Shown here one piece after another: positions 1-35,800 of a stretch of 64,000 bases of DNA. The first letter of the stretch is position 1, and each line of letters starts with the position of its first letter. The notes under the pieces were generated by a model, which saw only the letters and a program-made list of their open reading frames with translations, was not told the origin of the DNA and did not search any database. The position numbers were made by a program, and so were the translations under genes. Source of the stretch: Muricea muricata (lineage: Eukaryota; Cnidaria; Anthozoa; Malacalcyonacea; Plexauridae). The stretch lies in assembly GCA_963855995.1 (NCBI GenBank), contig OY979717.1, forward strand, positions 6,133,428-6,197,427, written 5' to 3'.

Positions 1-382
1 CGGGGTAGAGGTGAAACGTGTAACTGGTTGTGCTGTGGTGGAAATGCTAGGCACACTTGAAGCAATTGTTGTTGGTAATATTGTAGGACAGTTCTCCTCA
101 TCTTCTCCTTGTGGACATTCTTCAGTTCCATCGCAGATGTAACTAATAGAGATACATTTATCACTTCTTGGACAGCGCCATTGTGTGGTGTTGGTACAAG
201 TGCAGTTAGTTTCATCCATACTGTTGTTGCAGTCTTTGAAATAATCACAGATTCTTGTCTTTGAAATGCACGTGCCATCTGAGCATAAGAACTCACAGGT
301 CGGTGGTTGAGTTGTAGTTGGACAGTTGTTACGATCTTCATCCTCACCTCCAGGGCAATCGTTTTCGCCATCACAAAGGAAT
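1..382 (-). CDS. Exon: LDLa repeats 3-5 and Thr/Ser linker, runs off window
   Basis: The acceptor gttgccag precedes 382. The frame is open through base 1 (127 codons). It completes an LDLa ([17 protein letters not shown]), then gives two more ([18 protein letters not shown] .. [27 protein letters not shown] .. [11 protein letters not shown]). It ends in a Thr/Ser/Pro stretch ([16 protein letters not shown]). The fourth LDLa is atypical: CDYFKDC lacks the usual Gly and the second acidic cluster is weak, so its calcium site may be poor. Confidence 0.82.
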
Positions 383-2862: not shown

Positions 2863-5800
2863 CACTATATTTCACAACAACCGAAAGCCCTTTGTCGGGA
2901 CTTTTTGGTTCGACGAATTTTGATACGCGCCGCACTCCGTTCGCATCCATAGCGAAATATCTTGTTTTGTGTGCTTCGCATTACATTACAGACATCCACA
3001 ACGCTAATCGAACTATAATTTTATTTTTCCAGTTAACTGTTAAACAAGGATGTTTTTTTTTTTCAACCGCCCACCACTTTATCAAGCACTAACAATTTAT
3101 CAACGTAAAATAACGTTTTATCACTAATGATAGAGCTCTGGGATTATAACAAATAAACATATCCAAATATAGCAAATGTGAAAAACGATATCAAATCTTC
3201 ATAAAAGATACAAGACTAAAAGATATCTCATACCTCTTTAAGCTTCCGATTATTTTTACCCTCGCACAAAATGGCCGTATGCTACTGAACGTCGAGTTTT
3301 AAATTTAGACTACACTACTTATTGGATAACCAGGCCGTTAAACGTCCAGACTAAAAACGCTTTCAAACGCCACCGAAAAAATTCTAACCGCGAGAAACAA
3401 ATATGCATTTCCAGTTAAAAAACCTTTCAATATTAAGTTACGACTATGACAAAGACAGGACATCTTCGTGGATGAAGATTTATGCTTTCTTATAAATATA
3501 TTTACTTGCAAAACACCTCTACATACTACATGCTAATTCAGTAATGAACTGAATACACATTTCACGAGAAAAATAACGACATTACAATTTATTACATACC
3601 ATTCCGCTCGAACAAAGCGTCGGCGCCTCCACCGACGGCCTTTCAGTTGAAGCTGTGGTTGTTACTGAAGTAGGAGCAGTTCTTGGTTTTGTTCTTACTG
3701 CAGTTACAGCAGTTGTTTCTTTTGCTGTTACACCAGTTGCAGCAGTTGTTGGTTTTGTTGTTACTCCAGTAGCAGAAGTTGTTGCTTTAGTTGTTACTCC
3801 AGTAGCAACAGTTGTTGCTTTAGTAGTTACTCCACTAGCAGAAGTTGTTGCTTTAGTAGTTACTCCAGTAGCGGCAGTTGTTCCTTTAGTTGTTACACCA
3901 GTTCTTGCTTTGGTTGTTACTCCAGTAGCAGCAGTTGTCAGCTTTGTTGTCACTCCAGTAGCAGCACTTGTTGCTTTTGTTGTTACACCAGTTGCAGCAG
4001 TTGGTTTTGTTGTTACTCCAGTAGAGGCAGTTGTCGCTTTTGTTGTTACACCAGTTGCAGCAGTTGGTTTTGTTGTTACTTCAGTAGCGGCAGTTGTCGC
4101 TTTAGTAATTACTCCAGTTGCCGCAGTTGTTGCTTTGGTTAATACTCGAGTAGCAGCAGTTGTTTCTTTAGTAGTTACTCCAGTAGCGGCAGTTGTTTCT
4201 TTAGTTGTTACCCCAGTTGTTGCTTTGGTTGTTACTCCAGTTGCAGCAGTTGTTCGTTTTGCTGTTACTCCAGTACCAGCAGTTGTTGCTTTAGTAGTTA
4301 CTCCAGTAGCAGCAGTTGTTCCTTTAGTTGTTACACCAGTTGCTGCTTTGGTTGTTACTCCAGTAGCCACAGTTGTTGCCTGACTAGTTACTCCAGTAGC
4401 GGCAGTTGTTGGTTTTGTTGTTAATACAGTAGCAGCAGTTGTGTGTTTTGTTGTTACTCCAGTAACAGCAATTGTTGCTTTAGTAGTTAGTCCAGTAGCA
4501 GCAGTAGTTGCTTTAGTTGTTACACTAGTTGTTGCTTTGGTTGTTACTCCAGTAGCAGGAGTTGTTGGTTTTGTTACTCTAGTAGCAACCGTTGTTGCTT
4601 TAGTTACTCCAGTTGCCGCAGTTGTTGCTTTGTTTGTTACTCCAATTGCAGAAGTTATTGCTTTAGTAGTTACTCTAGTAGCAGCAGTTGTTCCATTAGT
4701 TGTTACACCAGTTTTTGCTTCGGTTGTTACTTCAATAGCAGCAGTTGTTGGTTTTGTTGTTACCCCAGTAGCAGCAGTTGTTGCTTTTGTTGTTACACCA
4801 GTTGCACCAGTTGGTTTTGTTGTTACTTCAGTAGCGGCAGTTGTCGCTTTAGTAGTTACTCCAGTTGCCGCAGTTGTTTCTTTCGTTGTTACTCGAGTAG
4901 CAGCAGTTGTTGTTTTAGTAGTTACTCCAGTAGCGACAGTTGTTGCTTTAGTTATTACACCAGTTGTCGCTTTGGTTGTTACTCCAGTAGCAGCAGTTGT
5001 TGGTTTTGTTGTTACTCCAGTAGCAGCAGTTGTTGCTTTAGTAGTTACTGCAGTAGCGGCAGTGGTCGCTTTAGTTGTTACACCCGTTTTTCCTTTCGTT
5101 GTTACTCCAGTTGAAGCAGTTGCTGGTTTTGATGTTACTACAGTAGCAGCACTTGTTGCTTTTGTTACACCAGTTGCAGCAGTTGGTTTTGTTGTTACTT
5201 CAGTAGCGGCAGTTGTCGCTTTAGTAGTTACTCCAGTTGCCGCAGTTGTTGCTTTCGTTGTTACTCCAGTAGCAGCAGTTCTTTCTTTAGTAGTTACTCC
5301 AGTAGCGGCAGTTCTTTCTTTAGTTGTTACACCAGTTTTTGCTTTGGTTGTTACTCCAGTAGCAGCAGTTGTTGCTTTTGTTGTTACACCAGTTGCAGCA
5401 GTTGTTGCTTTAGTTGTTACTCCAGTAGCAGCAGTTGTTGTTTTAGTAGTTACTCCAGTTTTTGCTTTGGTTGTTACTCCAGCAGCAGCAGTTGTTATTT
5501 TTGTTGTTACACCAGTTGCAGCAGTTGGTTTTGTTGTTACTCCAGTAGCAGCAGTGGTCGCTTTAGTAGTTACTCCAGTTGCCGCAGTTGTTGCTTTGGT
5601 TGTTACTTGAGTAGCAACAGTTGTTGCTTTAGTAGTTACTTCAGTAGCGGCAGTTGTTGCTTTAGTTGTTACACCAGTTGTTGCTTTGGTTGTTACTCCA
5701 GTAGCAGCAGTTGTTTCTTTACTGGTTACTCCAGTAGCGGCAGTTGTTCGTTTTGTTGTTACTACAGTAGCAGCAGTTGTCGCTTTAGTAGTTACTCCAG

Positions 5801-8800
5801 TTGTCGCAGTTGTTACTTTGGTTGTTACTAGAGTAGCAGCAGTTGTTGCTTTAGTTATTACACCAGTTGCAGCAGTTGTTGCTTTAGTTGTTACTCCAGT
5901 AGCAGCAGTTGTTGTTTTAGTAGTTACTCCAGTTTTTGCTTTGGTTGTTACTCCAGCAGCAGCAGTTGTTATTTTTGTTGTTACTCGAGTGGCAGCAGTT
6001 GTTGCTTTAGTAGTTACTCCAGTAGCGGCAGTTGTTGCTTTAGTTGTTACCCCAGTTGTTGCTTTGGTTGTTACTCCAGTAGCAGCAGTTGTTGGTTTTG
6101 TTGTTACTCCAGTAGCAGCAGTTGTTGCTTTAGTAGTTACTCCAGTAGCAGCAGTTGTTGTTTTAGTTATTACACTAGTTGTTGCTTTGGTTGTTACTCC
6201 AGTTGCAGCAGTTGTCGGCTTTGTTGTTACTCCAGTAGCAGCACTTGTTGCTTTTGTTGTTACACCAGTTGGTTTTGTTGTTACTCCAGTAGCAGCAGTG
6301 GTCGCTTTAGTAGTTACTATAGTTGCCGCAGTTGTTGCTTTGGTTGTTACTTGAGTAGCAGCAGTTGTTGCTTTAGTAGTTACTCCAGTAGCAGCAGTTG
6401 TTGTTTTAGTTGTTACACTAGTTGTTTCTTTGGTTGTTACTCCAGTTGCAACAGTTGTCGGCTTTGTTGTTACTCCAGTAGCAGCACTTGTTGCTTTTGT
6501 TGTTACACCAGTTGCAGCAGTTGGTTTTGTTGTTACTTCAGTAGCGGCAGTTGTCGCTTTAGTAGTTACTCCAGTTGCCGAAGTTGTTTCTTTGGTTGTT
6601 ACTCGAGTAGCAGCAGTTGTTTCTTTAGTAGTTACTCCAGTAGCGGCAGTTGTTGCTTTAGTTGTTATCCCAGTTGTTGCTTTGGTTGTTACTCCAGTAG
6701 CAGCAGTTGTTGGTTTTGTTGTTACTCCAATAGCAGCAGTTGTTGCTTTAGTAGTTACTCCAGTAGCAGCAGTTGTTCCTTTAGTATTTACACCAGTTGC
6801 TGCTTTGGTTGTTACTCCAGTAGCCACAGTTGTTGCCTGACTAGTTACTCCAGTAGCGGCAGTTGTTGGTTTTGTTGTTACTCGAGTAGCAGCAGTTGTT
6901 TCTTTAGTAGTTACTCCCGTAGCGGCAGTTGTTGCTTTAGTTGTTATGCCAGTTGTTGCTTTGGTTGTTACTCCAGCAGCAGCAGTTGTTGGTTTTGTTG
7001 TTACTCCAGTAGCAGCAGTTGTTGCTTTAGTAGTTACTCCAGTAACAGCAGTTGTTGTTTTATTTGTTACACTAGTTGTTGCTTTGGTTGTTACTCCAGT
7101 TGCAGCAGTTGTCGGCTTTGTTGTTACTCCAGTAGCAGCACTTGTTGCTTTTGTTGTTACACCAGTTGCAGCAGTTGCTTTTGTTGTTACTCCAGTAGCA
7201 GCAGTGGTCGCTTTAGTAGTTACTCCAGTTGCCGCAGTTGTTGCTTTAGTTGTTACACCAGTTGCTGCTTTGGTTGTTACTCCAGTAGCCACAGTTGTTG
7301 CCTGACTAGTTACTCCAGTAGCGGCAGTTGTTGGTTTTGTTGTTACTCCAGTAGCAGCAGTTGTGTGTTTTGTTGTTACTCCAGTAGCAGCAGTTGTTGC
7401 TTTAGTTGTTACATTAGTTGTTGCTTTGGTTGTTACTCCAGTAGCAGCAGTTGTTGGTTTTGTTGTTACTCCAGTAGCAGCAGTTGTTGCTTTAGTAGTT
7501 ACTCCAGTAGCAGCAGTTGTTGTTGTTTTAGTTGTTACACTAGTTCTTGCTTTGGTTGTTACTCCAGTTGCAGCAGTTGTCGGCTTTGTTGTTACTCCAG
7601 TAGCAGCACTTGTTGCTTTTGTTGTTACAACAGTTGGTTTTGTTGTTACTCCAGTAGCAGCAGTGGTCGCTTTAGTAGTTACTCCTGTTGCCGCAGTTGT
7701 TGCTTTGGTTGTTACTTGAGTAGCAGCAGTTGTTGCTTTAGTAGTTACTTCAGTAGCGGCAGTTGTTGCTTTAGTTGTTACACCAGTTGTTGCTTTGGTT
7801 GTTACTCCAGTAGCGGCAGTTGTTGGTTTTGTTGCTACTACAGTAGCAGCAGTTGTCGCTTTAGTAGTTACTCCAGTTGCCGAAGTTGTTTCTTTGGTTG
7901 TTACTCGAGTAGCAGCAGTTGTTTCTTTAGTAGTTACTCCAGTAGCGGCAGTTGTTGCTTTAGTTGTTACCCCAATTTTTGCTTTGGTTGTTACTCCAGT
8001 AGCAGCAGTTGTTGGTTTTGTTGTTCCTCCAGTAGCAGCAGTTGTTGCTTTAGTAGTTACTCCAGTAGCAGCAGTTGTTGTTTTATTTGTTACACTAGTT
8101 GTTGCTTTGGTTGTTACTCCAGTTGCAGCAGTTGTCGGCTTTGTTGTTACTCCAGTAGCAGCACTTGTTGCTTTTGTTGTTACACCAGTTGCAGCAGTTG
8201 GTTTTGTTGTTAGTCCAGTAGTAGCAGCAGTTGTTGCTTTAGTAGTTACTGCAGTAGCAGCAGTTGTTCCTTTAGTTGTTACACCAGTTGCTGCTTTGGT
8301 TGTTACTCCAGTAGCCACAGTTGTTTCCTGACTAGTTACTCCAGTAGCAGCAGTTGTTGGTTTTGTTGTTACTCCAGTAGCAGCAGTTGTTGTTTTAGGG
8401 ATTACACTAGTTGTTTCTTTGATTGTTACTCCAGTTGCAGCAGTTGTCGGCTTTGTTGTTACTCCAGTTGCAGCACTTGTTGCTTTTGTTGTTACACCAG
8501 TTGCAGCAGTTGCTTTTGTTGTTACTCCAGTAGCAGCAGTGGTCGCTTTAGTAGTTACTCCAGTTGCCGCAGTTGTTGCTTTAGTTGTTACACCAGTTGC
8601 TGCTTTGGTTGTTACTCCAGTAGCCACAGTTGTTGCCTGACTAGTTACTCCAGTAGCGGCAGTTGTTGGTTTTGTTGTTACTCCAGTAGCAGCAGTTGTG
8701 TGTTTTGTTGTTACTCCAGTAGCAGCAGTTGTTGCTTTAGTTGTTACATTAGTTGTTGCTTTGGTTGTTACTCCAGTAGCAGCAGTTGTTGGTTTTGTTG

Positions 8801-11800
8801 TTACTCCAGTAGCAGCAGTTGTTGCTTTAGTAGTTACTCCAGTAGCAGCAGTTGTTGTTGTTTTAGTTGTTACACTAGTTCTTGCTTTGGTTGTTACTCC
8901 AGTTGCAGCAGTTGTCGGCTTTGTTGTTACTCCAGTAGCAGCACTTGTTGCTTTTGTTGTTACAACAGTTGGTTTTGTTGTTACTCCAGTAGCAGCAGTG
9001 GTCGCTTTAGTAGTTACTCCTGTTGCCGCAGTTGTTGCTTTGGTTGTTACTTGAGTAGCAGCAGTTGTTGCTTTAGTAGTTACTTCAGTAGCGGCAGTTG
9101 TTGCTTTAGTTGTTACACCAGTTGTTGCTTTGGTTGTTACTCCAGTAGCGGCAGTTGTTGGTTTTGTTGCTACTACAGTAGCAGCAGTTGTCGCTTTAGT
9201 AGTTACTCCAGTTGCCGAAGTTGTTTCTTTGGTTGTTACTCGAGTAGCAGCAGTTGTTTCTTTAGTAGTTACTCCAGTAGCGGCAGTTGTTGCTTTAGTT
9301 GTTACCCCAATTTTTGCTTTGGTTGTTACTCCAGTAGCAGCAGTTGTTGGTTTTGTTGTTCCTCCAGTAGCAGCAGTTGTTGCTTTAGTAGTTACTCCAG
9401 TAGCAGCAGTTGTTGTTTTATTTGTTACACTAGTTGTTGCTTTGGTTGTTACTCCAGTTGCAGCAGTTGTCGGCTTTGTTGTTACTCCAGTAGCAGCACT
9501 TGTTGCTTTTGTTGTTACACCAGTTGCAGCAGTTGGTTTTGTTGTTAGTCCAGTAGTAGCAGCAGTTGTTGCTTTAGTAGTTACTGCAGTAGCAGCAGTT
9601 GTTCCTTTAGTTGTTACACCAGTTGCTGCTTTGGTTGTTACTCCAGTAGCCACAGTTGTTTCCTGACTAGTTACTCCAGTAGCAGCAGTTGTTGGTTTTG
9701 TTGTTACTCCAGTAGCAGCAGTTGTTGTTTTAGGGATTACACTAGTTGTTTCTTTGATTGTTACTCCAGTTGCAGCAGTTGTCGGCTTTGTTGTTACTCC
9801 AGTTGCAGCACTTGTTGCTTTTGTTGTTACACTAGTTGCAGCAGTTGGTTTTGTTGTTACTCCAGTAGCAGCAGTGGTCGCTTCAGTAGTTACTCCAGTT
9901 GCCGCAGTTGTTGCTTTGGTTGTTACTTGAGTAGCAGCAGTTGTTGCTTTAGTAGTTACTCCAGTAGCGGCAGTTGTTGCTTTAGTTGTTACACTAGTTG
10001 TTGCTTTGGTTGTTACTCCAGTAGTAGCAGTTGTTTCTTTACTAGTTACTCCAGTAGCGGCAGTTGTTGGTTTTGTTGTTACTACAGTAGCAGCAGTTGT
10101 CGCTTTAGTAGTTACTCCAGTTGCCGCAGTTGTTACTTTGGTTGTTACTCGAGTAGCAGCAGTTGTTGCTTTAGTAGTTACTCCAGTAGCGACAGTTGTT
10201 GCTTTAGTTGTTGCTTTAGTTGTTACCCTAGTTGTTGCTTTGGTTGTTACTCCAGTAGCAGCAGTTGTGTGTTTTGTTGTAACTCCAGTAGCAGCAGTTG
10301 TTGCTTTAGTAGTTACTCCAGTAGCAGCAGTTGTTGTTTTATTTGTTACACTAGTTGTTGCTTTGGTTGTTACTCCAGTTGCAGCAGTTGTCGGCTTTGT
10401 TGTTACTCCAGTAGCAGCACTTGTTGCTTTTGTTTTTACACCAGTTGCAGCAGTTGGTTTTGTTGTTACTCCAGTAGTAGCAGCAGTTGTTGCTTTAGTA
10501 GTTACTCCAGTAGCAGCAGTTGTTGCTTTAGTAGTTACTCCAGTAGCAGCAGTTGTTCCTTTAGTTGTAACACCAGTTGCTGCTTTGGTTGTTACTCCAG
10601 TAGCCACAGTTGTTGCCTGACTAGTTACTCCAGTAGCGGCAGTTGTTGGTTTTGTTGTTACTCCAGTAGCAGCAGTTGTTATTTTAGGGATTACACTAGT
10701 TGTTTCTTTGGTTGTTACTCCAGTTGCAGCAGTTGTCGGCTTTGTTGTTACTCCAGTAGCAGCACTTGTTGCTTTTGTTGTTACACTAGTTGCAGCAGTT
10801 GGTTTTGTTGTTACTCCAGTAGCAGCAGTGGTCGCTTCAGTAGTTACTCCAGTTGCCGCAGTTGTTGGTTTTGTTGTTACTACAGTAGCAGCAGTTGTCG
10901 CTTTAGTAGTTACTCCAGTTGCCGCAGTTGTTACTTTAATTGTTACTCGAGTAGCAGCAGTTGTTGCTTTAGTAGTTACTCCAGTAGCGACAGTTGTTGC
11001 TTTAGTTGTTACACCAGTTGTTGCTTTGGTTGTTACTCCAGTAGTAGCAGTTGTTTCTTTACTAGTTACTCCAGTAGCGGCAGTTGTTGGTTTTGTTGTT
11101 ACACCAGTTGTCGCTTTGGTTGTTACTCCAGTAGCAGCAGTTGTGTGTTTTGTTGTTACTCCAGTAGCAGCAGTTGTTGCTTTAGTTGTTACACCAGTTG
11201 TTGCTTTGGTTGTTACTCCAGTAGCAGCAGTTGTTGGTTTTGTTGTTACTCCAGTAGCAGCAGTTGTTGCTTTAGTAGTTACTCCAGTAGCAGCAGTTGT
11301 TGTTTTAGTTGTTGCATTAGTTGTTGCTTTGGTTGTTACTCCAGTTGCAGAAGTTGTTGGTTTTGTTGTTACTACAGTAGCAGCACTTGTTGCTTTTGTT
11401 GTTACTCCAGTAGCAGCAGTTGTTGCTTTAGTAGTTACTGCAGTAGCGGCAGTGGTCGCTTTAGTTGTTACACCAGTTTTGGCTTTGGTTGTTACTCCAA
11501 TAGCAGCACTTGTTGCTTTTGTTGTTACACCAGTTGCAGCAGTTGTTGGTTTGGTTGTTAGTCGAGTAGCAGCAGTTGTTGCTTTGGTGGTTACTCCAGT
11601 AGCGGCAGTTGTTACCTTAATTGTTACACCAGTTGTTGCTTTGGTTGTTACTTGAGTAGCAGCAGTTGTTGCTTTAGTAGTTACTCCAGTAGCAGCAGTT
11701 GTTCCTTTAGTTGTTACACCAGTTGCTGCTTTGGTTGTTACTCCAGTAACCACAGTTCTTGCCTGACTAGTTATTCCAGTAGCGGCAGTTGTTGGTTTTG

Positions 11801-14800
11801 TTGTTACTCCAGTAGCAGCAGTTGTGTGTTTTGTTGTTACTCCAGTAGCAGCAGTTGTTGCTTTAGTTGTTACATTAGTTGTTGCTTTGGTTGTTACTCC
11901 AGTAGCAGCAGTTGTTGGTTTTGTTGTTACTCCAGTAGCAGCAGTTGTTGCTTTAGTAGTTACTCCAGTAACAGCAGTTTTAGTTTTAGTTGTTGCACTA
12001 GTTGTTGCTTTGGTTGTTACTTCAGTTGCAGAAGTTGTTGGTTTTGTTGTTACTACAGTAGCAGTACTTGTTGCTTTTGTTGTTACACCAGTTGCAGCAG
12101 TTGGTTTTGTTGTTACTCCAGTAGCAGCAGTTGTTGCTTTAGTAGTTACTGCAGTAGCGGCAGTGGTCGCTTTAGTTGTTACACCAGTTTTGGCTTTGGT
12201 TGTTACTCCAATAGCAGCACTTGTTGCTTTTGTTGTTACACCAGTTGCAGCAGTTGTTGGTTTGGTTGTTAGTCGAGTAGCAGCAGTTGTTGCTTTGGTG
12301 GTTACTCCAGTAGCGGCAGTTGTTACCTTAATTGTTACACCAGTTGTTGCTTTGGTTGTTACTTGAGTAGCAGCAGTTGTTGCTTTAGTAGTTACTCCAG
12401 TAGCAGCAGTTGTTCCTTTAGTTGTTACACCAGTTGCTGCTTTGGTTGTTACTCCAGTAACCACAGTTCTTGCCTGACTAGTTATTCCAGTAGCGGCAGT
12501 TGTTGGTTTTGTTGTTACTCCAGTAGCAGCAGTTGTGTGTTTTGTTGTAACTCCAGTAGCAGCAGTTGTTGCTTTAGTAGTTACTCCAGTAGCAGCAGTT
12601 GTTGTTTTATTTGTTACACTAGTTGTTGCTTTGGTTGTTACTCCAGTTGCAGCAGTTGTCGGCTTTGTTGTTACTCCAGTAGCAGCACTTGTTGCTTTTG
12701 TTTTTACACCAGTTGCAGCAGTTGGTTTTGTTGTTACTCCAGTAGTAGCAGCAGTTGTTGCTTTAGTAGTTACTCCAGTAGCAGCAGTTGTTGCTTTAGT
12801 AGTTACTCCAGTAGCAGCAGTTGTTCCTTTAGTTGTAACACCAGTTGCTGCTTTGGTTGTTACTCCAGTAGCCACAGTTGTTGCCTGACTAGTTACTCCA
12901 GTAGCGGCAGTTGTTGGTTTTGTTGTTACTCCAGTAGCAGCAGTTGTTATTTTAGGGATTACACTAGTTGTTTCTTTGGTTGTTACTCCAGTTGCAGCAG
13001 TTGTCGGCTTTGTTGTTACTCCAGTAGCAGCACTTGTTGCTTTTGTTGTTACACTAGTTGCAGCAGTTGGTTTTGTTGTTACTCCAGTAGCAGCAGTGGT
13101 CGCTTCAGTAGTTACTCCAGTTGCCGCAGTTGTTGGTTTTGTTGTTACTACAGTAGCAGCAGTTGTCGCTTTAGTAGTTACTCCAGTTGCCGCAGTTGTT
13201 ACTTTAATTGTTACTCGAGTAGCAGCAGTTGTTGCTTTAGTAGTTACTCCAGTAGCGACAGTTGTTGCTTTAGTTGTTACACCAGTTGTTGCTTTGGTTG
13301 TTACTCCAGTAGTAGCAGTTGTTTCTTTACTAGTTACTCCAGTAGCGGCAGTTGTTGGTTTTGTTGTTACACCAGTTGTCGCTTTGGTTGTTACTCCAGT
13401 AGCAGCAGTTGTGTGTTTTGTTGTTACTCCAGTAGCAGCAGTTGTTGCTTTAGTTGTTACACCAGTTGTTGCTTTGGTTGTTACTCCAGTAGCAGCAGTT
13501 GTTGGTTTTGTTGTTACTCCAGTAGCAGCAGTTGTTGCTTTAGTAGTTACTCCAGTAGCAGCAGTTGTTGTTTTAGTTGTTGCATTAGTTGTTGCTTTGG
13601 TTGTTACTCCAGTTGCAGAAGTTGTTGGTTTTGTTGTTACTACAGTAGCAGCACTTGTTGCTTTTGTTGTTACTCCAGTAGCAGCAGTTGTTGCTTTAGT
13701 AGTTACTGCAGTAGCGGCAGTGGTCGCTTTAGTTGTTACACCAGTTTTGGCTTTGGTTGTTACTCCAATAGCAGCACTTGTTGCTTTTGTTGTTACACCA
13801 GTTGCAGCAGTTGTTGGTTTGGTTGTTAGTCGAGTAGCAGCAGTTGTTGCTTTGGTGGTTACTCCAGTAGCGGCAGTTGTTACCTTAATTGTTACACCAG
13901 TTGTTGCTTTGGTTGTTACTTGAGTAGCAGCAGTTGTTGCTTTAGTAGTTACTCCAGTAGCAGCAGTTGTTCCTTTAGTTGTTACACCAGTTGCTGCTTT
14001 GGTTGTTACTCCAGTAACCACAGTTCTTGCCTGACTAGTTATTCCAGTAGCGGCAGTTGTTGGTTTTGTTGTTACTCCAGTAGCAGCAGTTGTGTGTTTT
14101 GTTGTTACTCCAGTAGCAGCAGTTGTTGCTTTAGTTGTTACATTAGTTGTTGCTTTGGTTGTTACTCCAGTAGCAGCAGTTGTTGGTTTTGTTGTTACTC
14201 CAGTAGCAGCAGTTGTTGCTTTAGTAGTTACTCCAGTAACAGCAGTTTTAGTTTTAGTTGTTGCACTAGTTGTTGCTTTGGTTGTTACTTCAGTTGCAGA
14301 AGTTGTTGGTTTTGTTGTTACTACAGTAGCAGTACTTGTTGCTTTTGTTGTTACACCAGTTGCAGCAGTTGGTTTTGTTGTTACTCCAGTAGCAGCAGTT
14401 GTTGCTTTAGTAGTTACTGCAGTAGCGGCAGTGGTCGCTTTAGTTGTTACACCAGTTTTGGCTTTGGTTGTTACTCCAATAGCAGCACTTGTTGCTTTTG
14501 TTGTTACACCAGTTGCAGCAGTTGTTGGTTTGGTTGTTAGTCGAGTAGCAGCAGTTGTTGCTTTGGTGGTTACTCCAGTAGCGGCAGTTGTTACCGTAAT
14601 TGTTACACCAGTTGTTGCTTTGGTTGTTACTTGAGTAGCAGCAGTTGTTGCTTTAGTAGTTACTCCAGTAGCAGCAGTTGTTCCTTTAGTTGTTACACCA
14701 GTTGCTGCTTTGGTTGTTACTCCAGTAACCACAGTTCTTGCCTGACTAGTTATTCCAGTAGCGGCAGTTGTTGGTTTTGTTGTTACTCCAGTAGCAGCAG

Positions 14801-23800: not shown

Positions 23801-26800
23801 TTGTTGCTTTAGTAGTTACTCCAGTAGCAGCGGTTGTTGCTTTAGTTGTTACACCAGTTGTCGCTTTGGTTGTTACTCCAGTAGCAGCAGTTGTTTGTTT
23901 TGTTGTTACTCCAGTAGTAGCAGTTGTTGCTTTAGTAGTTACGGCAGTAGCGGCAGTGGTCGCTTTAGTTGTTGCACCAGTTTTTTCTTTGGTTGTTACT
24001 CCAGTAGCAGCACTTGTTGCTTTTGTTGTTACACCAGTTGCAGCAGTTGTTTCTTTGGTTGTTACACCAGTTGTTGCTTTGGTTGTTGTTCCAGTAGCAG
24101 CAGTTGTTGGTTTTGTTGTTACTACAGTAGCAGCACTTGTTGCTTTTGTTGTTACACCAGTTGCAGCACTTGGTTTTGTTGTTACTCCAGTAGCGGCAGT
24201 GGTCGCTTCAGTAGTTACTCCAGTTGCCGCAGTTGTTGGTTTTGTTGTTACTACAGTAGCAGCAGTTGTCGCTTTAGTAGTTACTCCAGTTTCCGCAGTT
24301 GTTACTTTGGTTGTTACTCGAGTAGCAGCAGTTGTTGCTTTAGTAGTTACTCCAGTAGCGACAGTTGTTGCTTTAGTTGTTACACCAGTTGTCGCTTTGG
24401 TTGTTACTCCAGTAGCAGCAGTTGTGTGTTTTGTTGTTACTCCAGTAGCAGCAGTTGTTGCTTTAGTTGTTACACTAGTTGTTGTTTTGGTTGTTACTCC
24501 AGTAGCAGAAGTTGTTGGTTTTGTTGTTACTCCAGTAGCAGCAGTTGTTGCTTTAGTAGTTACTCCAGTAGCAGCAGTTGTTGTTTTAGTTGTTGCACTA
24601 GTTGTTGCTTTGGTTGTTACTCCAGTTGCAGAAGTTGTTGGTTTTGTTGTTACTACAGTAGCAGCACTTGTTGCTTTTGTTGTTACTCCAGTAGCAGCAG
24701 TTGTTGCTTTAGTTGTTACACCAGTTGTCGCTTTGGTTGTTACTCCAGTAGCAGCAGTTGTGTGTTTTGTTGTTACTCCAGTAGCAGCAGTTGTTGCTTT
24801 AGTTGTTACACTAGTTCTTGCTTTGGTTGTTACTCCAGTAGCAGCAGTTGTTGGTTTTGTTGTTACTCCAGTAGCAGCAGTTGTTGCTTTAGTAGTTACT
24901 CCAGTAGCAGCAGTTGTTGTTTTAGTTGTTGCACTAGTTGTTGCTTTGGTTGTTACTCCAGTTGCAGAAGTTGTTGGTTTTGTTGTTACTACAGTAGCAG
25001 CACTTGTTGCTTTTGTTGTTACTCCAGTAGCAGCAGTTGTTGCTTTAGTAGTTACTGCAGTAGCGGCAGTGGTCGCTTTAGTTGTTACACCAGTTTTGGC
25101 TTTGGTTGTTACTCCAGTAGCAGCACTTGTTGCTTTTGTTGTTACACCAGTTGCAGCAGTTGTTGGTTTGGTTGTTAGTCGAGTAGCAGCAGTTGTTGCT
25201 TTGGTGGTTACTCCAGTAGCGGCAGTTGTTACCTTAATTGTTACACCAGTTGTTGCTTTGGTTGTTACTTGAGTAGCAGCAGTTGTTGCTTTAGTAGTTA
25301 CTCCAGTAGCAGCAGTTGTTCCTTTAGTTGTTACACCAGTTGCTGCTTTGGTTGTTACTCCAGTAGCCACAGTTCTTGCCTGACTAGTTATTCCAGTAGC
25401 GGCAGTTGTTGGTTTTGTTGTTACTCCAGTAGCAGCAGTTGTGTGTTTTGTTGTTACTCCAGTAGCAGCAGTTGTTGCTTTAGTTGTTACATTAGTTGTT
25501 GCTTTGGTTGTTACTCCAGTAGCAGCAGTTGTTGGTTTTGTTGTTACTCCAGTAGCAGCAGTTGTTGCTTTAGTAGTTACTCCAGTAACAACAGTTTTAG
25601 TTTTAGTTGTTGCACTAGTTGTTGCTTTGGTTGTTACTTCAGTTGCAGAAGTTGTTGGTTTTGTTGTTACTACAGTAGCAGTACTTGTTGCTTTTGTTGT
25701 TACACCAGTTGCAGCAGTTGGTTTTGTTGTTACTTCAGTAGCGGCAGTTGTCGCTTTAGTAGTTACTCCAGTTGCCGAAGTTGTTTCTTTGGTTGTTACT
25801 CGAGTAGCAGCAGTTGTTTCTTTAGTAGTTACTCCAGTAGCGGCAGTTGTTGCTTTAGTTGTTACACCAGTTGTTGCTTTGGTTGTTACTCCAGTAGCAG
25901 CAGTTGTTGCTTTAGTTGTTACACTAGTTGTTGCTTTGGTTGTTACTCCAGTAGCAGCAGTTGTTGGTTTTGTTGTTACTCCAATAGCAGCAGTTGTTGC
26001 TTTAGTAGTTACTCCAGTAGCAGCAGTTGTTGTTTTAGTTGTTGCACTAGTTGTTGCTTTGGTTGTTACTCCAGTTGCAGAAGTTGTTGGTTTTGTTGTT
26101 ACTACAGCAGGAGCTTTTGTTGCTTTTGTTGTTACTCCAGTAGCAGCAGTTGTTGCTTTAGTAGTTACTGCAGTAGCGGCAGTAGTCGCTTTAGTTGTTA
26201 CACCAGTTTTGGCTTTGGTTGTTACTCCAGTAGCAGCACTTGTTGCTTTTGTTGTTACACCAGTTGCAGCAGTTGTTGCTTTGGTTGTTAGTCGAGTAGC
26301 AGCAGTTGTTGCTTTGGTGGTTACTCCAGTAGCGGCAGTTGTTACCTTAGTTGTTACACCAGTTGTTGCTTTGGTTGTGACTCCAGTAGCAGCAGTTGTG
26401 TGTTTTGTTGTTACTCCAGTAGCAGCAGTTGTTGCTTTAGTTACTCCAGTTGCCGCAGTTGTTGCTTTGGTTGTTACTCCAGTTGCAGAAGTTATTGCTT
26501 TAGTAGTTACTCCAGTAGCAGCAGTTGTTGCGTTAGTTGTTACACCAGTTTTTGCTTTGGTTGTTACTCCAGTAACAACAGGTGTTGGTTTTGTTGTTAC
26601 TACATAAGCAGCAGTTGTTGCTTTTGTTATTACACCAGTTGCAGCAGTTGTTGGTTTTGTTGTTACCCCAGTAGCAGCAGTTGTTGGTTTTGTTGTTACT
26701 ACAGTAGCAGCACTTGTTGCTTTTGTTGTTACACCAGTTGCAGCACTTGGTTTTGTTGTTACTCCAGTAGCGGCAGTTGTCGCTTTAGTAGTTACTCCAG

Positions 26801-29800
26801 TTGCCGCAGTTGTTGCTTTGGTTGTTACACCAGTTGTTGCCTTGGTTGTTACTCCAGTAGCAGCAGTTGTTATTTTTGTTGTTACTCGAGTGGCAGCAGT
26901 GGTTGCTTTAGTAGTTACTCCAGTAGCGGCAGTTGTTGCTTTAGTTGTTACCCCAGTTGTTGCTTTGGTTGTTACTCCAGTAGCAGCAGTTGCTGGTTTT
27001 GTTGTTACTCCAGTAGCAGCAGTTGTTGCTTTAGTAGTTACTCCAGTAGCAGCAGTTGTTGTTTTAGTTTTCACACTAGTTGTTGCTTTGGTTGTTACTC
27101 CAGTAGCAGCAGTTGGCTTTGTTGGCACTCCAGTAGCAGCACTTGTTGCTTTTGTTGTTACACCAGTTGCAGGAGTTGGTTTTGTTGTTACTCCAGTAGC
27201 GGCAGTTGTCGCTTTAGTAGTTACTCCAGTTTCCACAGTTGTTGCTTTAGTTGTTATTTGAGTAGCAGCAGTTGTTTCTTTAGTAGTTACTCCAGTAGCG
27301 GCAGTTGTTGCTTTAGTTGTTACACCAGTTGTTGCTTTGGTTGTTACTCCAGTAGCAGCAGTTGTTGCTTTAGTAGTTACTCCAGTAGCAGCAGTTGTTG
27401 TTTTATTTGTTGCACTAGTTGTTGCTTTGGTTGTTACTCTAGTTTCAGCAGTTGTCGGCTTTGTTGTTACTCCAGTAGCAGCACTTGTTGCTTTTGTTGT
27501 TACACCAGTTGCAGCAGTTAGTTTTGTTGTTACTCCAGTAGCAGCAGTGGTCGCTTCAGTAGTTACTCCAGTTGCCGCAGTTGTTGCTTTGGTTGTTACT
27601 TGAGTAGCAGCAGTTGTTGCTTTAGTAGTTACTCCAGTAGCGGCAGTTGTTGCTTTAGTTGTTTCACCAGTTGTTGCTTTGGTTGTTACTCCAGTAGCAG
27701 CAGTTGTTTCTTTACTAGTTACTCCAGTAGCGGCAGTTGTTGGTTTTGTTGTTACTACAGTAGCAGCAGTTGTCGCTTTAGTAGTTACTCCAGTTGCCGC
27801 AGTTGTTACTTTGGTTGTTACTCGAGTAGCAGCAGTTGTTGCTTTAGTAGTTACTCCAGTAGCAACAGTTGTTGCTTTAGTTGTTACACCAGTTGTCGCT
27901 TTGGTTGTTACTCCAGTAGCAGCAGTTGTGTGTTTTGTTGTTACTCCAGTAGCAGCAGTTGTTGCTTTAGTTGTTACACTAGTTGTTGCTTTGGTTGTTA
28001 CTCCAGTAGCAGCAGTTGTTGGTTTTGTTGTTACTCCAATAGCAGCAGTTGTTGCTTTAGTAGTTACTCCAGTAGCAGCAGTTGTTGTTTTAGTTGTTGC
28101 ACTAGTTGTTGCTTTGGTTGTTACTCCAGTTGCAGAAGTTGTTGGTTTTGTTGTTACTACAGTAGGAGCTTTTGTTGCTTTTGTTGTTACTCCAGTAGCA
28201 GCAGTTGTTGCTTTAGTAGTTACTGCAGTAGCGGCAGTGGTCGCTTTCGTTGTTACACCAGTTTTGGCTTTGGTTGTTACTCCAGTAGCAGCACTTGTTG
28301 CTTTTGTTGTTACACCAGTTGCAGCAGTTGTTGCTTTGGTTGTTAGTCGAGTAGCAGCAGTTGTTGCTTTGGTGGTTACTCCAGTAGCGGCAGTTGTTAC
28401 CTTAGTTGTTACACCAGTTGTTGCTTTGGTTGTGACTCCATTAGCAGCAGTTGTGTGTTTTGTTGTTACTCCAGTAGCAGCAGTTGTTGCTTTAGTTACT
28501 CCAGTTGCCGCAGTTGTTGCTTTGGTTGTTACTCCAGTTGCAGAAGTTATTGCTTTAGTAGTTACTCCAGTAGCAGCAGTTGTTGCATTAGTTGTTACAC
28601 CAGTTTTTGCTTTGGTTGTTACTCCAGTAACAACAGGTGTTGGTTTTGTTGTTACTACATAAGCAGCAGTTGTTGCTTTTGTTATTACACCAGTTGCAGC
28701 AGTTGTTGGTTTTGTTGTTACCCCAGTAGCAGCAGTTGTTGGTTTTGTTGTTACTACAGTAGCAGCACTTGTTGCTTTTGTTGTTACACCAGTTGCAGCA
28801 CTTGGTTTTGTTGTTACTCCAGTAGCGGCAGTTGTCGCTTTAGTAGTTACTCCAGTTGCCGCAGTTGTTGCTTTGGTTGTTACACCAGTTGTTGCCTTGG
28901 TTGTTACTCCAGTAGCAGCAGTTGTTATTTTTGTTGTTACTCGAGTGGCAGCAGTGGTTGCTTTAGTAGTTACTCCAGTAGCGGCAGTTGTTGCTTTAGT
29001 TGTTACCCCAGTTGTTGCTTTGGTTGTTACTCCAGTAGCAGCAGTTGTTGGTTTTGTTGTTACTCCAGTAGCAGCAGTTGTTGCTTTAGTAGTTACTCCA
29101 GTAGCAGCAGTTGTTGTTTTAGTTTTCACACTAGTTGTTGCTTTGGTTGTTACTCCAGTAGCAGCAGTTGGCTTTGTTGGCACTCCAGTAGCAGCACTTG
29201 TTGCTTTTGTTGTTACACCAATTGCAGGAGTTTGTTTTGTTGTTACTCCAGTAGCGGCAGTTGTCGCTTTAGTAGTTACTCCAGTTTCCACAGTTGTTGC
29301 TTTAGTTGTTATTTGAGTAGCAGCAGTTGTTTCTTTAGTAGTTACTCCAGTAGCGGCAGTTGTTGCTTTAGTTGTTACACCAGTTGTTGCTTTGGTTGTT
29401 ACTCCAGTAGCAGCAGTTGTTGCTTTAGTAGTTACTCCAGTAGCAGCAGTTGTTGTTTTATTTGTTGCACTAGTTGTTGCTTTGGTTGTTACTCCAGTTG
29501 CAGCAGTTGTCGGCTTTGTTGTTACTCCAGTAGCAGCACTTGTTGCTTTTGTTGTTACACCAGTTGCAGCAGTTAGTTTTGTTGTTACTCCAGTAGCAGC
29601 AGTGGTCGCTTCAGTAGTTACTCCAGTTGCCGCAGTTGTTGCTTTGGTTGTTACTTGAGTAGCAGCAGTTGTTGCTTTAGTAGTTACTCCAGTAGCGGCA
29701 GTTGTTGCTTTAGTTGTTTCACCAGTTGTTGCTTTGGTTGTTACTCCAGTAGCAGCAGTTGTTTCTTTACTAGTTACTCCAGTAGCGGCAGTTGTTGGTT

Positions 29801-32800
29801 TTGTTGTTACTACAGTAGCAGCAGTTGTCGCTTTAGTAGTTACTCCAGTTGCCGCAGTTGTTACTTTGGTTGTTACTCGAGTAGCAGCAGTTGTTGCTTT
29901 AGTAGTTACTCCAGTAGCAACAGTTGTTGCTTTAGTTGTTACACCAGTTGTCGCTTTGGTTGTTACTCCAGTAGCAGCAGTTGTGTGTTTTGTTGTTACT
30001 CCAGTAGCAGCAGTTGTTGCTTTAGTTGTTACACTAGTTGTTGCTTTGGTTGTTACTCCAGTGGCAGCAGTTGTTGGTTTTGTTGTTACTCCAATAGCAG
30101 CAGTTGTTGCTTTAGTAGTTACTCCAGTAGCAGCAGTTGTTGTTTTAGTTGTTGCACTAGTTGTTGCTTTGGTTGTTACTCCAGTTGCAGAAGTTGTTGG
30201 TTTTGTTGTTACTACAGTAGGAGCACTTGTTGCTTTTGTTGTTACTCCAGTAGCAGCAGTTGTTGCTTTAGTAGTTACTGCAGTAGCGGCAGTGGTCGCT
30301 TTAGTTGTTACACCAGTTTTGGCTTTGGTTGTTACTCCAGTAGCAGCACTTGTTGCTTTTGTTGTTACACCAGTTGCAGCAGTTGTTGCTTTGGTTGTTA
30401 GTCGAGTAGCAGCAGTTGTTGCTTTGGTGGTTACTCCAGTAGCGGCAGTTGTTACCTTAGTTGTTACACCAGTTGTGGCTTTGGTTGTGACTCCAGTAGC
30501 AGCAGTTGTGTGTTTTGTTGTTACTCCAGTAGCAGCAGTTGTTGCTTTAGTTACTCCAGTTGCCGCAGTTGTTGCTTTGGTTGTTACTCCAGTTGCAGAA
30601 GTTATTGCTTTAGTAGTTACTCCAGTAGCAGCAGTTGTTGCATTAGTTGTTACACCAGTTTTTGCTTTGGTTGTTACTCCAGTAACAACAGGTGTTGGTT
30701 TTGTTGTTACTACATAAGCAGCAGTTGTTGCTTTTGTTATTACACCAGTTGCAGCAGTTGTTGGTTTTGTTGTTACCCCAGTAGCAGCAGTTGTTGGTTT
30801 TGTTGTTATTACAGTAGCAGCACTTGTTGCTTTTGTTGTTACACCAGTTGCAGCACTTGGTTTTGTTGTTACTCCAGTAGCGGCAGTTGTCGCTTTAGTA
30901 GTTACTCCAGTTGCCGCAGTTGTTGCTTTGGTTGTTACACCAGTTGTTGCCTTGGTTGTTACTCCAGTAGCAGCAGTTGTTACTTTTGTTGTTACTCGAG
31001 TGGCAGCAGTGGTTGCTTTAGTAGTTACTCCAGTAGCGGCAGTTGTTGCTTTAGTTGTTACCCCAGTTGTTGCTTTGGTTGTTACTCCAGTAGCAGCAGT
31101 TGTTGGTTTTGTTGTTACTCCAGTAGCAGCAGTTGTTGCTTTAGTAGTTACTCCAGTAGCAGCAGTTGTTGTTTTAGTTTTCACACTAGTTGTTGCTTTG
31201 GTTGTTACTCCAGTAGCAGCAGTTGGCTTTGTTGGCACTCCAGTAGCAGCACTTGTTGCTTTTGTTGTTACACCAGTTGCAGGAGTTGGTTTTGTTGTTA
31301 CTCCAGTAGCGGCAGTTGTCGCTTTAGTAGTTACTCCAGTTTCCACAGTTGTTGCTTTAGTTGTTATTTGAGTAGCAGCAGTTGTTTCTTTAGTAGTTAC
31401 TCCAGTAGCGGCAGTTGTTGCTTTAGTTGTTACACCAGTTGTTGCTTTGGTTGTTACTCCAGTAGCAGCAGTTGTTGCTTTAGTAGTTACTCCAGTAGCA
31501 GCAGTTGTTGTTTTAGTTGTTACACTAGTTGTTGCTTTGGTTGTTACTCCAGTTGCAGCAGTTGTCGGCTTTGTTGTTACTCCAGTAGCAGCACTTGTTG
31601 CTTTTGTTGTTACACCAGTTTCAGCAGTTGGTTTTGTTGTTACTCCAGTAGCAGCGGTGATCGCTTTAGTAGTTACTCCTGTTGCCGCAGTTGTTGCTTT
31701 GGTTGTTACTTGAGTAGCAGCAGTTGTTGCTTTAGTAGTTACTTCAGTAGCGGCAGTTGTTGCTTTAGTTGTTACACCAGTTGTTGCTTTGGTTGTTACT
31801 CCAGTAGCGGCAGTTGTTGGTTTTGTTGTTACTACAGTAGCAGCAGTTGTCGCTTTAGTAGTTACTCCAGTTGCGGCAGTTGTCGCTTTAGTAGTTTTTC
31901 CAGTTGCCGCAGTTGTTGCTTTGGTTGTTACTCGAGTAGCAGCTGTTGTTGCTTTAGTAGTTACTCCAGTAGCAGCGGTTGTTGCTTTAGTTGTTACACC
32001 AGTTGTCGCTTTGGTTGTTACTCCAGTAGCAGCAGTTGTTTGTTTTGTCGTTACTCCAGTAGTAGCAGTTGTTGCTTTAGTAGTTACTGCAGTAGCGGCA
32101 GTGGTCGCTTTAGTTGTTGCACCAGTTTTTTCTTTGGTTGTTACTCCAGTAGCAGCACTTTTTGCTTTTGTTGTTACACCAGTTGCAGCAGTTGTTTCTT
32201 TGGTTGTTACACCAGTTGTTGCTTTGGTTGTTACTCCAGTAGCAGCAGTTGTTGGTTTTGTTGTTACTACAGTAGCAGCACTTGTTGCTTTTGTTGTTAC
32301 ACCAGTTGCAGCACTTGGTTTTGTTGTTACTCCAGTAGCGGCAGTTGTCGCTTTAGTAGTTACTCCAGTTGCCGCAGTTGTTGCTTTGGTTGTTACTCGA
32401 GTAGCAGCAGTTGTTTCTTTAGTAGTTACTCCAGTAGCAGCAGTTGTTGTTTTAGTTGTCACACTAGTTGTTGCTTTGGTTGTTACTCCAGTAGCAGCAG
32501 TTGTTGCTTTAGTAGTTACTGCAGTAGCGGCAGTGGTCGCTTTAGTTGTTGCACCAGTTTTTGCTTTGGTTGTTACTCCAGTAGCAGCACTTGTTGCTTT
32601 TGTTGTTACACCAGTTGCAGCAGTTGTTGCTTTGGTTGTTACTCGAGTAGCAGCAGTTGTTGCTTTGGTGGTTACTTCAGGAGCAGCAGTTTTTGCCTTA
32701 GTTGTTACACCAGTTGTTGCTTTGGTTGTTACTCCAGTGGCAGCAGTTGTGTGTTTTGTTGTTACTCCAGTAGCAGCAGTTGTTGCTTTAGTTACTCCAG

Positions 32801-35800
32801 TTGCCGCAGTTGTTGCTTTGGTTGTTACTCCAGTTGCAGAAGTTATTGCTTTAGTAGTTACTCCAGTAGCAGCAGTTGTTGCATTAGTTGTTAGACTAGT
32901 TGTTGCTTTGGTTGTTACTGCAGTAGCAGCAGCAGTTGTTGGTTTTGTTGTTACAGCAGTTACACCAGTTGTTGCTTGGGTTGTTACTCCACTAGCAGCA
33001 GTTGTTTCTTTTGTTGTTACACCAGTTGCCGCAGTTGTTGCTTTAGTTGTTACTCCAGTTGTTGCTTTGGTTTTTACTCCAGTCGCAGCAGTTGTTGCTT
33101 TAGTAGTTACCCCAGTTGCTGCAGTAGTTTCTTTGATTGTTACTCCAGTAGCAGCAGTTGTTGGTTTTGTTGTTACACCAGTTGCTGCAGTTGTTTCTTT
33201 GGTTGTTGCAGCAGTTGTTGGTATTATCTTTACACCAGTTGCAGCAGTTGTTTTAATGGTTGTGACTTGTGTTGCTGCAGTTGTTGCTTTTGTCGTTACT
33301 CCAGTTGTACTTGATCGAGCTTTTGTTGTCACCTCTGTTACTGGTGGAATTGTTGCCACTCCAGGTGCAGCTGATGTCAATTTTGTAACAATTGCTGGAG
33401 GAGCAGTTGTTATATTCGTTATATTCGTTGTCACGCCAGTTGATGCTTTTGTTGTTATTCCTGTTGCAGCAGTTGTTGCTTTGGTTGTTGGTCCAGTTGT
33501 AACAGCTGTTGGTTGTGCTTTGAATCCAGTTGAAGCCGTTGCCCCTATTAAACGATAAGTAGGTGGGAACAGGACACTTAGGCCAAAGAGCTACTTCATT
33601 CAAAAGGCATAAGGTGCTGTCGTCATGGTATGTCATGTTCCTAGGTAGTTGCAAAAACTAAAGCATTTCCCCCTGGTATTAGTAACCCTTTTTAATATTT
33701 CCGGGGGTGACTTCTTCTTTTTAGGGCACTGGCTAGGAACACAGCGCTTATGACGGATGTTGCACGCTCATTCCCCCAGGAAATATTAAGAATGGCTACT
33801 AATAGCGGGGGGAAATGCTTCTGTTTAGGGCACTGGCTAGGAACATGGCGCCCATGGCGTATCATGACGACAGCACCTTACGCTTTTTTGAATGAAGTGA
33901 CCCCTCTTTGTAGTTTCTACACTTTGCTTAGGCTATGGTTAAATGTAATTTATAATGCAAATGATGTAGTATTGTAATAACCTGGTAAAATAGAGCAGGT
34001 TGGTCCGGTACATTCTAGACAGCCAGATTTGCAGATGCTGGAATGGAAATGTCAGTGTAAAATATTATGAGAATGTGTATACCGAGAGATTTGATGGATT
34101 TTACGAAATATGTTCATTAATTCATGAAAATAGAATATACCCTGGGAAGGATGACTGATGTAATGAGAATGCAATAGCTCACACCTCTAGCGGATACTGT
34201 TTTGACATTGTGGATTGTACGATTGTTCACAGGTGCTGGTAATAAATGCTACCAACGGGTTCAAGTGGATCTCGTGTTCGAAGTTGTATGTATCTGAGAA
34301 ATGTATTTGCTGATCTGTTGATATTACGCGTTAGTTATGTTCTTACCAATTTTGACAGTTACTGATAACGAATGAACCGTTCTTGTACTCTTGACCATTA
34401 ACAACACACGGGCACGCTTGTGGTTCGATACATGCGCCGCTGTGAAGAACTGTGCCATTTGGACAATGACAGCCCTCAGTACATGGTATTGGGCAGGAAG
34501 GATGTGCTCCACATTGTGTCTCGCATGTTTCTGCGCAGGCTGATCCGCAGGCTTTGTATTCTAGACCATTCTCGCATTGAGCCGCTAAAAATAGAGATGA
34601 CCGTTTTTTATCGAAGCTTGCGGTTAATACCTTTTCAAGATTTGGATATAGTAGTTTAGGTTTTACTAGACTGCTAACTGATTCCATGCGTTGTCTTAAT
34701 TTACAATCATTATGATTCATTGCTGTTTTGGGCTGATCGATTTTTCTGCCTATTCAGCAAGACTAATAGCCTGTTCACCGACCTAACTTTAAAAGAGCAA
34801 GGTCCGTCAGGGCTTCAAGGATTGGTCATGGCTTTATAGGATACCCTAAAGGTCGAAATGTCGAGAGAGCACTGGGACCGAGTTGTCCCGGTGTTTTATG
34901 TATTTCTCACTCACTGGGACTCAATCTACTTCACCAAATTTACCTAAAGAGGGAGCGCGTAGCGCGACAATAAGCGTACTGTTTTGCTATATTAAAACTA
35001 TTCTCACTCACTGGGACTGTATCTACTTCACCAAATTTAGCAAAGCGCGAGCCCGAAGGGCGAGTAATGTTTGTCGCGCTACGCGCCCCCTCTTTAGCTA
35101 AATTTGGTGAAGTAGATACAGTCCAGTGAATGAGAAATGTGACAACCCAAGTATGACTCGATATTGATAGTAATATGTATGGGGATACACAAAACACAGG
35201 GGCAACTCGGTCCCAGTGCTTTCTCGACATTTCGACCTTTAGGGTATCCTATAAAGCCATGACCTTCAAGGATTGTTTGTTTGTGACCGAAAGAAGAATG
35301 AAAACAAATTTTAGTAAAATATACTAATTACTCTCTGTTTACATCGCAAATATTTGCTTCTAGTGCACTTTATCGTGGGGATTTTTTAATTTTATAGGAA
35401 AAAATGGGCATGGTAATTTTTCTTCCAAAAAACGCATTTTAAACACATCAATTGACGATGTGTTATAATGTTGCAGAAATTAATTTTTGAAAGCTTGAGA
35501 TTTAATTTATGTATGGACAAGAAAGTATTCACAGACCTTGATCATTCTGATACAGATCTGTGCACAGGCTACAAGAGTAATCATTTGGATTTGTGCGAAT
35601 TGTGTGCAGTTATCAACGGACTATCCTCTTCAATAAAAATGACCCGTATTTTTAGTGGAACAAAGACTGGTTATTACTTGCATTTGGAGCAGAATGTTTT
35701 AAGCGGACGCCACATTTGTCTTTATGAGCACACTGGTACTAACAACTAGCATTTTGATGCCAACTTAGCAGTTTGGGTGCGAACCTGGATTCTGAAACCC

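Follow-up and report, generated by a model that had tools for sequence, protein, structure and literature searches.

A single coding exon of 29.9 kb lies on the minus strand of the window analysed here, a 64,000-nucleotide stretch of the cnidarian Muricea muricata (C2:6,133,428-6,197,427 of a 453-Mb genome; C2 is contig OY979717.1, and its coordinates are used for the other copies of the gene). Judged from sequence, this exon (E23) very probably encodes the mucin (PTS) domain of a secreted cnidarian mucin of the gel-forming type. A PTS domain was found at the same place in cnidarian relatives, and a second mucin gene of the same genome (gene A) carries a short PTS exon, which argues that the giant exon is an enlarged cnidarian mucin PTS exon. 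The gene is an extreme version of a known mucin design and not a new kind of protein; new are its extreme length, its polycationic repeat, the lost LDLa module and the tandem cluster in which it lies.

Open frame and repeat structure of the giant exon

The open reading frame listing, with translations, contained a minus-strand stop-to-stop frame of 10,002 codons (3582-33590). Within it, E23 runs from 33544 to 3600 as a single open exon of 29,945 nt, i.e. 2 nt plus 9,981 codons. No stop codon was present in the used frame, compared with 1,013 and 514 in the other two frames of the coding strand. The acceptor at 33544 reads TCGTTTAATAG/GGGCAACG and the donor at 3600 reads GGAATG/GTATGT (slashes mark splice points). 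In the splice-site scan, in which only recognised domain cores were forced and candidates were judged against the scan thresholds, one in-phase candidate above thresholds was obtained on each side of the giant exon. The highest-scoring sites inside E23 were a GT donor of 3.0 and an AG acceptor of 1.2, whereas its own sites scored 4.0 and 3.8. The connector exon upstream (34037-33982) has a phase-1 end, and the TIL exon downstream (2485-1972) opens in phase 0; since the length of E23 is 2 mod 3, simple skipping breaks the frame, and omission of E23 from the splice model resulted in a frameshift and a stop after 18 residues. Simple skipping was therefore rejected. At the junction LCSSGM/VFTSC the final six residues of E23 give the next TIL module its first Cys. 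The preliminary description of this DNA had proposed both the frame of 9,981 codons with in-phase borders and the contribution of LCSSGM to the TIL module, and both were confirmed by the open reading frame, the splice model and the junction itself.

The consensus unit of the repeat comprises 11 residues (33 nt) and is arranged in higher-order blocks, with 184 three-codon jumps giving rise to short units of 8 residues. Blocks of up to 4.4 kb recur within E23 at 95-99% identity, and the offset of high-identity self-matches was divisible by 3 in 277 of 277 cases. Relative to the consensus, 1,551 synonymous and 859 non-synonymous single changes were counted, and no stop was observed among single changes where about 40 would be expected under neutrality; the 307 multi-change codons are excluded from this count and the block copies are not independent, so that it is descriptive and carries no P value.

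Threonine accounts for 43.5% of E23, followed by Ala (20.8%), Lys (9.8%), Ser (2.1%) and Pro (2.1%), while Asp is absent and the one Cys is that of the TIL module; the calculated pI is 11.2. Thr and Ser together exceed the 40% criterion for mucin domains (PMC9080433). Up to the end of E24, the precursor was calculated at 11,631 residues and 1.13 MDa before glycosylation. Among 453 scored candidate proteins of 5,490-17,466 residues, none with the same repeat was found at E 0.001, which is weak evidence given low-complexity scoring. A likeness to the Ala-Ala-Thr repeats of antifreeze glycoproteins was dropped, since the unit does not have the form (AAT)n.

A short-exon paralogue and the cnidarian relatives

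After the three copies of the gene described below, the next-best VWD3 match of the genome was located at C2:18,663,755 (45% identical). Gene A, in C2:18,664,000-18,673,999, is a second mucin gene that is nearest to a mucin-2-like protein of Dendronephthya: four of its exon pieces are 79, 94, 74 and 60% identical to Dendronephthya and 63, 85, 51 and 42% identical to the window gene. These values suggest that the source belongs to the octocorals. No near-identical copy of gene A was seen in the genome VWD3 search. Its PTS part is a single exon of 1,232 nt with a phase-1 start, a length of 2 mod 3 and a 33-bp period, composed of 22% Ser, 0.5% Lys and 4.4% Pro (window repeat: 2%, 9.8% and 2.1%). 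Behind it, the remainder of an LDLa module lies in an exon ending ...CCTAACAATATG/GTGAGA, followed by a TIL exon that opens with VFTAC. The correspondence of ATG/GT...VFTAC in gene A to GGAATG/GTATGT...VFTSC in the window indicates that the downstream junction is homologous and that the intervening LDLa is gone from the window gene. The homologous borders, together with the phase and the 33-bp period, argue that the giant exon is the PTS exon of the family in enlarged form. The two genes thus have the position of the PTS, its phase, its period and the VFTxC junction in common, but the PTS exon of gene A is 24 times shorter; by this measure the family exon appears to be enlarged 24-fold in the window, 16-fold in copy 2 and 34-fold in copy 3.

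Searches for relatives yielded 742 and 467 proteins, and the best 120 of each were examined. Among the best 120 of the 742, the four top matches were all cnidarian (Dendronephthya mucin-2-like, Oculina, Porites and Actinia). In four of four cnidarian proteins measured (Dendronephthya, Actinia, Hydractinia and Hydra), a Cys-free, Thr/Ser-rich stretch follows directly after the connector; it comprises 264-522 residues there and about 9,980 in the window gene. The Oculina and Porites models lay outside this measurement, the latter ending at the PTS position. The cnidarian mucin-2-like proteins (Dendronephthya gigantea, 4,064 residues; Actinia tenebrosa, 3,267 residues; Hydra 'SCO-spondin isoform X2') share the D1-D2-D'-D3 assembly, connector and PTS with the window gene, and also its TIL-VWC-LDLa-F5/8C-LDLa tail and C-terminal cystine-knot region. 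In Dendronephthya, Actinia and Hydra the PTS is followed by LDLa and more PTS before this tail, in which F5/8C was recognised by Pfam in the Actinia and Hydra proteins and by eye only in Dendronephthya. Over D1-D3 the window gene is 50% identical to Dendronephthya; Lys contributes 1.6-5.4% in the cnidarian relatives, compared with 9.8% in the window repeat.

For the D1-D3 tree, 40 rows were used, comprising the window and 39 of 235 fetched proteins that were chosen by name for spread; a quick method with SH-aLRT as the only support was applied, and ten rows had odd composition. Seven cnidarian rows grouped together (SH-aLRT 99; window with Anthozoa, 99), with one further row also inside, and the window, Dendronephthya and the hexacorals formed no resolved order among themselves. 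Five vertebrate SCO-spondins were placed in a separate clade (100), and vertebrate MUC and VWF proteins in another group (99) that contained four invertebrate-chordate rows. Four arthropod hemocytins formed their own clade (at least 99); the window does not group with the hemocytin/hemolectin family. At the root of the drawing, the cnidarian group stood beside the hemocytin, mollusc and acorn-worm rows at only 84.

The preliminary description had taken the product for a protein of the SCO-spondin type that had gained a novel Thr-rich insert of giant size, perhaps a new kind of structural mucus or matrix filament. SCO-spondin and the window gene indeed have EMI, three VWD units, F5/8C, LDLa, TIL, VWC, EGF and CTCK in common, a combination that would support this proposal (PMC8487547 for EMI, EGF, the three VWD units, F5/8C, LDLa and CTCK), and hydrozoan relatives are named SCO-spondin or SCO-spondin-like in some databases. 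Of 119 window Cys, 108 are shared with Xenopus SCO-spondin; the corresponding numbers are 117 for Dendronephthya, 108 for frog VWF and 99 for bat MUC2, so that the Cys pattern cannot separate mucin from SCO-spondin. However, a scan of minus-strand frames to either side of the giant exon gave no TSP1/TSR match at E 0.01, whereas there are 27 TSR in chick SCO-spondin, and a PTS is not named in its plan in the excerpt of PMC8487547. PF00090 is likewise not listed for the Dendronephthya, Actinia and Hydra relatives. SCO-spondin membership was rejected on the lack of TSR in the frames scanned and on the tree position, and the idea of an insert peculiar to this gene does not hold, as gene A and all four cnidarian relatives measured carry a PTS in the corresponding position. 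The SCO-spondin-type proposal is therefore considered very improbable.

Domain plan of the gene and comparison with known mucins

The exons modelled for the gene are as follows, in the order of transcription.

50050..50171, minus strand: E1, start codon and hydrophobic leader (open reading frame and splice model; leader by eye after the Met at 50171, a putative signal peptide; 97.5% identical in copy 2)
48602..49305, minus strand: E2-E3, EMI-type domain (49305-49096 and 48699-48602; Pfam EMI 18.0 bits, cut-off 25)
46208..48088, minus strand: E4-E8, five EGF-like modules, one per exon (Pfam EGF_2, five stretches; splice model)
43463..44695, minus strand: E9-E10, VWD1-C8 (Pfam VWD 7.5e-38, C8 4e-15; aligns with MUC2 and VWF chains)
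42295..42779, minus strand: E11-E12, TIL1 and VWC-like connector (Pfam; splice model)
39696..41750, minus strand: E13-E15, VWD2-C8-TIL2 (Pfam; splice model; MUC2 alignment)
37416..38120, minus strand: E16-E17, connector and D' TIL module (Pfam; splice model; MUC2 alignment)
34347..37340, minus strand: E18-E21, VWD3-C8-TIL3 (Pfam; splice model; MUC2 alignment)
33982..34037, minus strand: E22, Cys-rich connector exon with phase-1 end (splice model)
3600..33544, minus strand: E23, giant repeat exon (open reading frame, splice model, repeat analysis)
1972..2485, minus strand: E24, remainder of TIL4, VWC and first LDLa (Pfam)
1522..1766, minus strand: E25, first part of the F5/8 type C domain (splice sites by eye; Pfam F5_F8_type_C 8.7e-08 on the joined piece)
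579..1012, minus strand: E26, remaining part of F5/8C, followed by LDLa modules (splice sites by eye; Pfam)
1..382, minus strand: E27, more LDLa modules, cut by the window (Pfam)

The C-terminal Pfam query included about 10 residues later assigned to an intron, of which the domain calls are independent. In the genome sequence the gene continues for up to about 5.4 kb past window position 1, with two more TIL pieces, VWC pieces that remained below the cut-off, and a cystine knot (Cys_knot, 8.9e-07). Features of a gel-forming mucin are thus present at both ends: D1-D2-D'-D3 with conserved Cys, and a C-terminal VWC (E24) with a cystine knot. D1-D3 of the window aligns end to end with the MUC2 chain 7pov_A (4.9e-226), and a CGLC motif was found in each of the VWD units D1, D2 and D3. 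With regard to the domains listed in the preliminary description, EGF, the three VWD units, F5/8C and LDLa were recovered; its EMI domain stayed below threshold in the window (18.0 bits) but scored above it in all three anthozoan relatives scanned (25.1, 41.7 and 27.1 bits), while a Xenopus SCO-spondin piece scored 12.5. Human gel-forming mucins are not known to carry EMI, LDLa or F5/8C.

Human MUC2, MUC5AC, MUC5B and MUC6 share with the window gene the D1-D2-D'-D3 assembly, one large repeat exon and a C-terminal cystine knot (PMC9712336, PMC9080433). Their mucin domain is encoded in one tandem-repeat exon of 3.0-13.5 kb, varying among people's assemblies (PMC9712336), as against 29.9 kb here, and they fall into a separate tree clade. 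Among other very long coding exons or repetitive genes, the literature gives over 21 kb for MUC16 exon 3 (PMC5338267), 42,270 bp in two exons of similar size for spider AgSp1 (PMC6553539) and 25,250 bp for the entire caddisfly H-fibroin gene (PMC9693786). The window exon is longer than these giant exons found in the literature, and the statement in the preliminary description that it surpasses the known giant mucin exon stands with respect to MUC16. According to PMC9080433, Lang et al. 2007 reported mucin genes in Nematostella, and partial sequences of gel-forming mucins are available for Actinia (PMC9080433); placozoans, Hydra and a ctenophore are also reported to have gel-forming mucins (PMC11452194). 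A giant cnidarian mucin exon was not found in the titles and abstract openings covered, which represent the literature in part.

Apart from the mucin exons, inverted repeats resembling small transposons were observed in the introns beside the connector exon, at 33590-33900 (by eye) and 34824-35264 (an inverted match between copies). An open frame of 860 residues for a THAP/P-element-type transposase (THAP, Tnp_P_element, TNP-like) lies at 53870-56452 on the minus strand, upstream of the mucin gene, and the matching part of copy 2 holds an open frame of 843 residues (C2:6297936-6300464). An open frame on the plus strand at 61725-63998 encodes 758 residues in the window, without a Pfam match at E 0.01, and 925 when extended to C2:6197926. 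Ten copies of a 25-bp unit form a tandem array at 52172-52419. Scans of the window for tRNA and Rfam families gave no matches. In the genome, 74 VWD-type exon matches were obtained (E at most 0.001, own copies included), among them matches at about 108-109 Mb of C1, 57.15-57.19 Mb of C3 and 12.3-12.9 Mb of C4, some regularly spaced by about 3.5 or 4.3 kb, which suggests large tandem VWD families or arrays.

Tandem copies and possible function

A 401-base stretch with the connector exon matched the genome three times, in each case on C2: at its own position and, with 99% identity, in two other places. About 119-129 kb seems to be the size of the duplicated unit. In copy 1 (that of the window) the giant exon is open over 29,945 nt and in copy 2 over 19,694 nt; in copy 3 it spans 41,885 nt, and all three lengths are 2 mod 3. 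Best matches of 150-bp windows between copies had offsets that were multiples of 3 throughout (131/131, 199/199, 199/199 and 279/279). With up to 2 mismatches, the 33-bp unit occurred 704 times in the 453-Mb genome on a single strand, compared with 0 for a reversed-pattern control, and 704 of 704 units fell into the three giant exons (236, 170 and 298). A passenger satellite, also discounted in the preliminary description, was rejected on this count, the phase and the selection pattern: the repeat is confined to three homologous exons and is an integral part of the gene, the frame of which is lost on skipping.

All 23 other modelled exons are retained in copy 2, where donors are GT and acceptors, except for the start exon, AG; 22 of these exons align from end to end. 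Between copies 1 and 2, 14 synonymous and 20 non-synonymous differences were counted in the 22 unique exons, corresponding to a pN/pS of 0.38, from which E3 was excluded as its alignment was two bases short. The exon of copy 3 (C2:6385873-6427757) has the same phase, but its frame is interrupted by two TGA codons that lie in duplicated blocks at a distance of 2,067 bp. The copy may be damaged, it may be an allele, or a base-call error may have been multiplied along with the block that holds it. These stops suggest that at least one copy may be damaged and would fit a coding relic or passenger, i.e. an exon skipped in the mature RNA or a locus that is a decaying duplicate. Yet skipping breaks the frame, copies 1 and 2 are open throughout and the pN/pS argues against decay, so that a relic is hardly credible.

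An assembly artefact, by which the array was partly over-expanded or mis-joined haplotypes appear as tandem copies, would mean that 29.9 kb is not the real exon length. Self-duplications (at least 95% identity over 300 bp) cover 94% of E23, exact repeats reach up to 2,085 bp, and the tandem units are alike including their spacers (95.5-99.5% in the main colinear pieces), all of which such an artefact would explain. Three copies with three lengths, all 2 mod 3 and two of them (29.9 and 19.7 kb) without a frame break, are difficult to reconcile with it; moreover, many blocks differ by 1-5%, the contig measures 71.7 Mb and no N occurs across the 264 kb joined. The artefact is thus judged improbable.

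Several points nevertheless weigh against a gel-forming-type mucin with a PTS exon of the length and copy number described here. As the spacers between copies are alike too (95.9-99.5% in the main colinear pieces), one of the copies may represent an uncollapsed haplotype, and the array may in reality have another length. Some other modelled splice sites of the gene score as low as those inside E23 or lower (e.g. -0.2 for the E7 donor), and internal splicing may be compatible with the scores. The proline content of 2.1% is below the approximately 5% quoted for mucin domains (PMC9080433), a figure that describes such domains rather than defines them; this is one reason to regard the gene as a variant acting in the manner of gel-forming mucins, and the repeat is strongly positive, unlike that of gene A with its 0.5% Lys. 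The LDLa between PTS and TIL in Dendronephthya, Actinia, Hydra and gene A is absent from the window gene, and the 108 Cys matched by Xenopus SCO-spondin belong here as well. Finally, the cnidarian group is no nearer to the vertebrate gel-forming mucins than to SCO-spondin and stands apart from MUC/VWF, a separation that would be expected if the cnidarian genes represent an old separate branch.

As the PTS exon of a gel-forming-type mucin, the giant exon was very probably enlarged by repeated tandem duplication in blocks of whole codons, and the repeat shifted from Ser-rich to Lys-rich. By analogy to the mucin/VWF family (PMC8487547, PMC9080433), the cystine knot would join monomers at the C-terminus, the N-terminal D assemblies would link the dimers into long disulfide-linked polymers, and the approximately 4,500 Thr/Ser would bear O-glycans, which would hold the repeat in an extended, hydrated state. 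Lys at about every tenth residue makes the backbone strongly cationic; as a guess from composition, such a backbone could bind anionic glycans or surfaces. In the mucus or adhesive coat of the animal, the product would then form a very long mucin. That the protein instead serves in a skeletal matrix or in adhesion, and does not form a mucus gel, is considered unlikely, although it would be compatible with the mucin reading: a limpet adhesive-mucus paper mentions SCO-spondin 25 times (PMC7333891), and anionic surfaces might well be bound by a cationic repeat, whereas a red-coral protein annotated as sushi-domain-containing 2-like counts against this reading.

A further possibility, put forward tentatively and at rather low probability, is that the locus represents a tandem cluster of megadalton polycationic mucins, the naked backbone of which, a giant polycation, could condense anionic glycans, DNA, microbes or mineral. 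In this view an ordinary Ser/Thr-rich mucin was duplicated, and the gene kept the 11-residue register but appears to have exchanged most Ser for Ala and to have gained a Lys roughly once in ten residues along a repeat of 6,500-14,000 residues. If such a polycationic class exists, its exons may rank with the longest coding exons in animals.

The Thr/Ser repeat between D3 and the LDLa/F5-8C tail is common to cnidarian mucins, and the SCO-spondin labels on some database entries may therefore mislead. Within one genome, a mucin exon is seen at 1.2 kb and, enlarged without loss of the codon register, at 20-42 kb. The case allows asking how giant repeat exons arise, splice and are translated, and what role a long positive mucin may have in cnidarian mucus and adhesion.

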